Below are positions 24,763 to 45,827 of a stretch of 49,170 nt of DNA, one piece after another. The position numbers and the translations under genes were made by a program. The notes beneath the pieces are model-generated. The model saw only the letters and a program-made list of their open reading frames with translations, had not been told where the DNA came from and made no database searches. The stretch's first letter is position 1. Every line of letters begins with the position of its first letter. The stretch spans positions 1 through 49,170 of the forward strand of contig DULZ01000042.1 in NCBI GenBank assembly GCA_012840125.1, in the 5' to 3' direction. The stretch comes from Clostridia bacterium. Its GTDB lineage: Bacteria; Bacillota; DULZ01.

Positions 24763-24806
24763 ATGTATAGAACAAGAAAAAATTGTTAAAATTATCAATG
24801 AATAGC

Positions 24807-24832
24807 AGGAATTTGATGGCAATAGGTAGAAT
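24807..24832 (+). promoter_or_regulatory. Sigma-H promoter of spoVG
   Basis: AGGAATT (24807-24813), a 12-base spacer, and GTAGAAT (24826-24832) match the sigma-H consensus AGGAWWT and RnnGAAT. spoVG is a classical sigma-H gene in Bacillus, and an AT-rich tract lies just upstream. Confidence 0.8.
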
Positions 24833-24880
24833 CTCAAGAGGACAACGCTGGTTTCTTTATGACAGAAGGGTGGTGAGCAG

Positions 24881-25144
24881 GTGAATATCACGGATGTCCA
24901 GGTGAGAAAGGTCAACCCGGAGGGTAAAATGAAAGCCATCGTCTCGGTAACCTTTGATGATGCCTTCGTGGTGCATGACGTCAAGGTGGTGGAAGGGCAA
25001 AACGGTCTCTTTGTCGCTATGCCCAGCAGGCGTACTCCCAGCGGGGAATTCCGGGACATTGCCCATCCCATTTCCCAGGCAGCTCGCAACGTCATCCAGG
25101 AAGCAGTTCTCAAAGCTTACATGGCATATAAAGAGGCGATTTAA
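24881..25144 (+). CDS. spoVG: Regulatory RNA/DNA-binding protein SpoVG
   Basis: The 87-residue protein is a clear Spo[34 protein letters not shown] in outline, [20 protein letters not shown], and a C-terminal helix. SpoVG is a small conserved nucleic-acid-binding regulator that affects cell division, virulence genes and sporulation. GTG 24881 follows AAGGGTGG. It has its own sigma-H promoter and terminator and sits before glmU, the usual order. Confidence 0.97.
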
Positions 25145-44519: not shown

Positions 44520-45038
44520 GTGAAGTCCGTGGTACCGGTGTTGGAACAATTCCAATCCTTTTTTTTTACGGTGCTGATAGGGCTGCTTCTCGGGTTTATC
44601 GTGGACGGGTACCGCACCTTGGCGAACCGTGTACCCGGCAAATCTGCCCTCCGGATGGCGGGGGATATCCTCCTCTGGGTGTTCTTGGCAGGACTGGTCT
44701 TTTTTTTATTGCTCCTCAATAACTGGGGGGAAGTTAGGGCCTATGTGTTGATCGGCATGGCCGTGGGTTTAATGATCTACCGCCGTAAATGTAGTTCCTA
44801 TGTAGTTCGTTTCTGGCAGACGGTCTTTGTTGCAGCGGGAAAATTATGGAGATTAGCCGTCGCTCTTCTATTGTTCCCTTTTCGTTTCATGCAAAAGATC
44901 TTATTTGTGCCCCTGGGGATCGTAAGCATGGGGCTGGATTGGCTCTGGCGATTATGGCGGGGGATCCTGCGCCGCCTGGGTTTGAGCCCACGCCGGTGGC
45001 GAGAGAAGATCAAGAAATTGCTGCGCCGGCGAAAATAA
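44520..45038 (+). CDS. yabQ: Sporulation protein YabQ
   Basis: A 172-residue membrane protein with an N-terminal YabQ domain: QFQSFFFTVLIGLLLGFIVD, then LADIL-like helix ILLWVFLAGLVFFLLLL and GMAVGLMIYRR, followed by a basic tail (WREKIKKLLRRRK). YabQ acts in the spore cortex stage under sigma-E. GTG 44520 is used; GTG 44529 is possible. No terminator is visible after it. Confidence 0.92.
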   Translation: MKSVVPVLEQFQSFFFTVLIGLLLGFIVDGYRTLANRVPGKSALRMAGDILLWVFLAGLVFFLLLLNNWGEVRAYVLIGMAVGLMIYRRKCSSYVVRFWQTVFVAAGKLWRLAVALLLFPFRFMQKILFVPLGIVSMGLDWLWRLWRGILRRLGLSPRRWREKIKKLLRRRK

Positions 45039-45105
45039 GTTTTGGGTACTAGCAGGAACTGCCAAAAGGCCGTAGAAATAGATATGTACAAAATTTGTAG
45101 TTAAT

Positions 45106-45148
45106 ATATCCACAATTTGTGGATAATCCGTGGATGATATGTGGATAA
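45106..45148 (+). promoter_or_regulatory. Cluster of four DnaA boxes
   Basis: Two perfect boxes on the minus sense, TGTGGATAA (45118-45126 and 45140-45148); one 8/9 box, ATATCCACA (45106-45114); and a 7/9 variant, CGTGGATGA (45129-45137). The first two form a perfect 9-bp inverted repeat, TATCCACAA-T-TTGTGGATA. The flanks are AT-rich. The cluster lies about 28-70 bases before the HTH-divIC genes. Confidence 0.8.
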
Positions 45149-45175
45149 CTAGAGCGGCCGGAGTTGTTACACCAG

Positions 45176-45403
45176 ATGCGCATGGAAATTCGGGGTGTGG
45201 AAAAATTAAGCTTTAGGGAACGGCAAGTAGTCGCATTAAAGGAAATGGGCAAGAGCACGGAACAAATCGCGAAACAGTTGGGGTTGAGCACCAGTACCGT
45301 AGCGACACTGTACAACCGGGCCAGGAGCAAAGGCTATGAAGTGGTCATCATTATACCCGGAGCAGCCCTTGGCATTACGGATCCGGATGATGAGGAGGCA
45401 TAA
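45176..45403 (+). CDS. Small sigma-70 region 4-like HTH protein
   Basis: A 75-residue protein whose core is a single helix-turn-helix: LSFRERQVVALKEMGKSTEQ then IAKQLGLSTSTVATLYNRAR, like sigma region 4 or LuxR HTH, with a short tail. No other domain is present. ATG 45176 or 45182 or a TTG at 45164 are possible starts; ATG 45176 is given though its Shine-Dalgarno is far (GGAG at 45160-45163). It overlaps the first part of the divIC region and sits directly after the DnaA boxes. Function unknown. Confidence 0.7.
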   Translation: MRMEIRGVEKLSFRERQVVALKEMGKSTEQIAKQLGLSTSTVATLYNRARSKGYEVVIIIPGAALGITDPDDEEA

Positions 45404-45410
45404 GGCGGCA

Positions 45411-45827
45411 GTGGCTGGTTTGAAACCTTTGGCACCCTTGACCGGGGATGAAGAGCACGGTTTACCATATCCCCCTGTCATTACCTCGTCCCGCCAAAAA
45501 GGGCAGAAGAAAACACGGGCACGCTGGCGCTCCCTGATCGTGCTGGCGGTGGTTTTCTATATCCTGGCCACTTTGGTAGGATTAAAACTGGAGTTGTATC
45601 AAGCGGACCGGCAGTTGCTGGAATTACAGCAGCGCAAAGAACAATTGCTGGCTGAACACCAGCAGCTTTTGCAGGACAAGGAAAAACTGAACAGCCCCGC
45701 CTACATAGAGAGAAGAGCCAGGGAAGCCTTAGGTTTAATTAAGCCCGGCGAAAAGATCTTAACCCCGGCGAAGCCCGGACAGGTCCTGCCTCTTCAGCTA
45801 AAGGGCATTGACGAGATCGGCGATTAG
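45411..45827 (+). CDS. divIC: Cell-division septum protein DivIC/FtsB-like
   Basis: A single-pass protein with a short cytoplasmic N-terminus, a transmembrane segment (SLIVLAVVFYILATLVGL), and a coiled-coil extracellular region (QADRQLLELQQRKEQLLAEH) ending in ERRAREALGLIKPGEKI, the DivIC/FtsB signature. It works with FtsL and DivIB in the divisome. The frame is open further up to 45336; GTG 45411 just after the HTH gene's stop is the best compromise (138 aa), as AGGAGG at 45393-45398 is 12 bases off. Confidence 0.85.
   Translation: MAGLKPLAPLTGDEEHGLPYPPVITSSRQKGQKKTRARWRSLIVLAVVFYILATLVGLKLELYQADRQLLELQQRKEQLLAEHQQLLQDKEKLNSPAYIERRAREALGLIKPGEKILTPAKPGQVLPLQLKGIDEIGD

Follow-up and report, generated by a model that had tools for sequence, protein, structure and literature searches.

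It is proposed that the row of DnaA boxes upstream of the division gene divIC in this Clostridia bacterium is a DnaA operator, probably built into a sigma-H-type promoter that drives the operon of a small helix-turn-helix (HTH) gene and divIC; the proposal is drawn from sequence comparison. The window, that is, the whole stretch of DNA analyzed (49,170 nucleotides of contig DULZ01000042.1), holds the gene order yabP-yabQ-cluster-HTH-divIC-S1 protein, with the following features around the cluster.

44520-45038, plus strand: yabQ (spore cortex protein), the upstream neighbour (PF09578, E 2.4e-19).
45052-45060, plus strand: sigma-H-like -35 element GCAGGAACT (consensus RNAGGAWWW), conserved in relatives.
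45072-45080, plus strand: sigma-H-like -10 element GTAGAAATA (consensus RNNGAATWW), after an 11-bp spacer.
45085-45106, plus strand: two weak TGTA-type units, TGTACAAAATT and TGTAGTTAATA, that share the register of the strong boxes.
45106-45114, plus strand: DnaA box ATATCCACA, 8/9, in an orientation opposed to the other boxes.
45107-45125, no strand: inverted repeat TATCCACAA-T-TTGTGGATA with 9-bp arms and a 1-base centre, made from the boxes ATATCCACA and TGTGGATAA.
45118-45126, minus strand: perfect DnaA box TGTGGATAA, 9/9.
45129-45137, minus strand: degenerate DnaA box CGTGGATGA, 7/9, 2 bp from either neighbour.
45140-45148, minus strand: perfect DnaA box TGTGGATAA, 9/9.
45176-45403, plus strand: small HTH gene, 75 aa, sigma-70 region 4/GerE-like (PF08281, E 2.7e-10).
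45336-45827, plus strand: divIC open frame (PF04977, E 4.6e-15).

The core of this list had been described in an earlier note on the same DNA, and the two perfect boxes, the 8/9 box and the 7/9 box were indeed recovered within 43 bases (45106-45148), together with the 9-bp inverted repeat around a single base at 45107-45125. The boxes at 45118-45126 and 45140-45148 are the only perfect ones in the whole window, which contains 20 boxes with at most one mismatch against 8.5 expected. Genome-wide there are 38 perfect boxes against 11 occurrences of the reversed word, which makes it unlikely that two would lie within 31 bp by chance, as the note had argued. A box in the place of the degenerate CGTGGATGA is also present in family relatives. 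The genome encodes a DnaA with a standard DNA-binding domain (signature GRDHTTVLHACEKV), which should therefore read the standard box, and the occurrence of several boxes near the TTATCCACA consensus beside a promoter corresponds to the layout of a DnaA-regulated promoter.

Downstream of the cluster, the orthologue alignment favours ATG 45176 over TTG 45164 as the probable start of the HTH gene, which leaves 27 bp between the end of the array and this ATG; the true start of divIC probably lies downstream of 45403. The HTH protein gave generic sigma/LuxR-type matches in NCBIfam, all under the cut-offs, and generic HTH chains in the PDB.

HTH orthologues are present in 28 of 60 relative genomes, and a scan of GTDB species genomes yielded 385 relatives of the HTH protein, 80 of which were retrieved with names for comparison of their upstream regions. 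Among these 80, 78 could be tested for divIC, which follows the HTH gene in 77; a match to yabQ precedes the HTH gene in 56 of 76. The earlier note had made its reading depend on conservation of the boxes in relatives that keep yabQ-HTH-divIC, and this conservation was found: boxes with at most one mismatch occur 1.76 times per 130 bp upstream of the HTH gene (79 loci, many families), compared with 0.056 in dinucleotide shuffles (a 31-fold enrichment) and 0.047 in other stretches of the same loci. At least two boxes are present in 46 of the 79 upstream regions and at least three in 28; in the orthologue set from the 60 relatives, the window included, 23 of 29 loci have at least two. In the window's own family the promoter and the boxes align and the flanks do not. 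Offsets of 11 and 12 bp between boxes dominate among relatives, corresponding to gaps of 2-3 bp, and E. coli DnaA in vivo favours box pairs 2-3 bp apart (PMC11317965).

The promoter elements GCAGGAACT-N11-GTAGAAATA show two mismatches in total to the sigma-H consensus RNAGGAWWW/RNNGAATWW (quoted in PMC8510167), a point against the proposal; transcription would start near 45087, at about the beginning of the array. An element with at most one mismatch is found in 32 of the 80 loci (2.2 expected), and among the 60 loci with at most two mismatches the spacer is 11 bp in 42, so that a RNAGGAWWW element followed after about 11-12 bp by RNNGAATWW is conserved at this position, as expected of a sigma-H promoter. 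A stricter fixed pattern, searched on both strands (931 kb in all), matched 12 of the 80 upstream regions, with only 17 further occurrences in the remainder of those loci. No sigma-70-type promoter was found within 44900-45500. The gene spoVG, which is well known to be under sigma-H control in Bacillus, served as an internal control: the same sigma-H-like element lies upstream of it in most of the same genomes, and in the window, where spoVG occupies approximately 24800-25123, the upstream GCAGGAATT-N12-GTAGAATCT provides a good local sigma-H reference. SigH itself is encoded in 21 of 22 carrier genomes, including the source genome (TIGR02859 over the cut-off). The remaining carrier (L016; G033:C17), whose assembly may be incomplete, has no SigH match over the cut-off and three boxes before its HTH gene, and the boxes may thus matter apart from sigma-H.

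The feature is larger than 43 bp, since the boxes form the downstream end of an 11-bp register that reaches back to 45085. In the window this register comprises six units between 45085 and 45148, starting at 45085, 45096, 45107, 45118, 45129 and 45140. Across the 80 upstream regions, 193, 138, 82 and 28 TGT-TGT pairs are separated by 11, 22, 33 and 44 bp, respectively, against roughly 2-15 pairs at other distances, and the four peaks stay when the strong boxes are masked (99, 60, 28 and 12). The register of the weak units was established over 73 non-redundant upstream regions; in 58 of 82 cases, weak TGT units were in phase with the strong box that comes first. Units close to the promoter have the consensus TGTAgAAA and TGTAcAcA, which shifts gradually to TGTGGATAA towards the gene. 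In the reverse direction, a spacing-only pattern (TGTA-N7-TGTR-N7-TGTR-N7-TGTR) was run over 299 genomes of the phylum, and 17 of the 30 loci retrieved adjoin the HTH gene; several matches among the rest resemble short repeats. A different 11-bp phased repeat, of the TGTACTTT type, was seen away from the HTH gene at two loci (L118, G037:C13:7634-7670; L119, G044:C14:43983-44019). The first reading of this DNA had missed both the 11-bp array and the sigma-H-like promoter, and with them the link to sporulation.

We propose that the strong boxes near the gene (45118-45148) would nucleate or anchor a DnaA oligomer, which would then spread in 11-bp steps over the weaker TGTA units back to the transcription start site. 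At high levels of active DnaA, probably in the ATP-bound form, this oligomer would shut off the promoter; as DnaA activity drops, more of the HTH protein and DivIC would be made, and septum formation, vegetative or sporulation-specific, would thereby be tied to replication status. The architecture, its conservation, its coupling to the HTH gene and the presence of a canonical DnaA and a SigH were observed, whereas DnaA occupancy, sigma-H use, ATP-dependence and the physiological purpose are inferred. Repression is the probable sign of regulation, judging solely from the position of the boxes downstream of the promoter; since DnaA activates sda directly in B. subtilis, where it appears to repress ywlC, vpr and others (PMC4447404), activation is a possible outcome as well. 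The low-affinity boxes of E. coli oriC, 2-4 bp apart, are filled cooperatively by ATP-DnaA beside strong anchors (PMC5742627).

The strongest alternative, which we consider rather unlikely, is that the array is the HTH protein's own operator and serves autoregulation, its likeness to DnaA boxes being partial, or that the HTH protein and DnaA compete for it. The HTH protein has a GerE/sigma-4-like HTH, and the array accompanies its gene and is mostly missing where that gene is not found: among 28 genomes that lack the HTH gene, only one has a box cluster in the 500 bp before divIC. Furthermore, 24 of the 79 loci lack any box with one mismatch or fewer within the 130 bp, and many of them still keep TGTA units, so that another protein may read part of the array; because the TGTA units outlast the strong boxes, this reader may be the HTH protein. 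However, the strong units correspond exactly to DnaA boxes, among them the oriC-like variant TTGTCCACA. The exceptional genome without the HTH gene (L171; G036:C7), in which no HTH frame is left, retains a sigma-H-like promoter (GCAGGATAT, GTAGAATTA) and four boxes immediately upstream of divIC. Judging by this single case, divIC may itself be targeted, and the boxes would be more than the HTH protein's operator. The earlier suggestion that the cluster is tied to divIC or the HTH regulator is strongly supported by comparison as a tie to the operon, through the conservation, the coupling to the HTH gene and L171, and other uses that the note had offered, a titration site or a secondary origin element, fared less well.

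The cluster is not the only one in the genome, an idea that was considered and rejected: four perfect boxes are located just downstream of tsaD (gcp) at C57:24151-24247 (L178:1652-1748), and three at C40:22002-22073. One of the eight strong DnaA regions of B. subtilis also lies downstream of gcp (gcp/ydiF) (PMC4447404), and the position of the tsaD-side cluster may accordingly be conserved across Bacillota. Directly abutting pairs of perfect boxes (TTATCCACATTATCCACA, a 9-bp step) were observed at three intergenic places (C57:24195-24212, C40:22056-22073 and C20:28470-28487), an arrangement unlike the 11-bp array.

That the boxes titrate or inactivate DnaA, in the manner of datA or a DnaA-box cluster, and act on replication timing and not on the operon, is in our judgement improbable. 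Several boxes in an intergenic region would suit such a site, and B. subtilis initiates early once six such clusters are deleted together (PMC5295017). But titration requires neither a fixed placement between promoter and start codon across many families nor a register reaching as far as the start site, and it alone fails to account for that fixed place; the genome also possesses other, larger clusters. A DARS-like element that reactivates DnaA is very improbable: one box is set against two, as in the three-box core of E. coli DARS1 and DARS2 (PMC5742627), but in a comparison with both E. coli sequences only the orientation was equal, the core offsets being 14 and 12 bp there and 12 and 11 bp here, and membership was rejected. 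A secondary origin or a part of oriC, to which clustered boxes in AT-rich DNA might point, is scarcely credible, because the trio-bearing element sits in the dnaA-dnaN gap (L002:2611-2640), where TTATCAAC-TTATCCACA-AGTC-CTACTACTAAGTCTACT presents a box followed by trinucleotide repeats (DnaA-trios) in the arrangement expected of an unwinding element, whereas in the window sequence no trio run abuts the boxes upstream of divIC, which thus lack the layout of a basal unwinding system; by its sequence, the gap is probably oriC with its unwinding element.

The preferred reading, an operator within the HTH-divIC promoter, has several partial precedents. As at B. subtilis sda, a gene for a small protein has a DnaA-box cluster at its promoter and a connection to sporulation, but the gene and the protein are different, and here the promoter is of the sigma-H type, the boxes lie downstream of it and weak units are phased at 11 bp. 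Sda itself (PF08970) was detected in the B. subtilis control and in none of the 22 carrier genomes, which gives no sign of an sda checkpoint in them. The E. coli 'double DnaA boxes' identified by ChIP-seq (purH, polA, mutH) share the 2-3-bp spacing, which is required in vivo (PMC11317965), but here there are more units, the first box is opposed, weak units stand in register and the gene is different. With the low-affinity arrays of E. coli oriC the locus has in common head-to-tail boxes 2-4 bp apart and weak sites beside strong anchors (PMC5742627), but it is a promoter leader without an unwinding element or trios.

In Bacillus, DnaA affects ftsL, a late division gene; the present case is alike in joining DnaA to a late division gene and unlike in the gene concerned. 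The eight strong DnaA regions of B. subtilis do not include divIC, and the main text of that study names none of divIC, yabQ and yabR (PMC4447404). A search of the main texts in a partial literature collection found no paper joining DnaA boxes with divIC, or DnaA with yabQ and divIC. DnaA-controlled promoters are known already, and what appears to be undescribed is the conserved link of replication to division or sporulation that HTH-divIC suggests.

The conserved promoter and its row of DnaA boxes in a broad group of spore-forming anaerobes suggest, as far as comparison of the DNA can indicate, a link between replication and cell division or sporulation. We hold only tentatively the wider idea of a group-wide replication-division-sporulation switch, in which the graded 11-bp array would read ATP-DnaA, gate the sigma-H-driven expression of DivIC and the HTH regulator, and replace the Sda checkpoint of Bacillus. 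How replication status reaches the division machinery and the sporulation decision is poorly known outside Bacillus, and here, in many families of anaerobic spore-formers, a defined DNA element places likely DnaA sites right at a promoter for a late division gene. Its gradient from weak to perfect boxes would be a natural site for a DnaA oligomer away from the origin.
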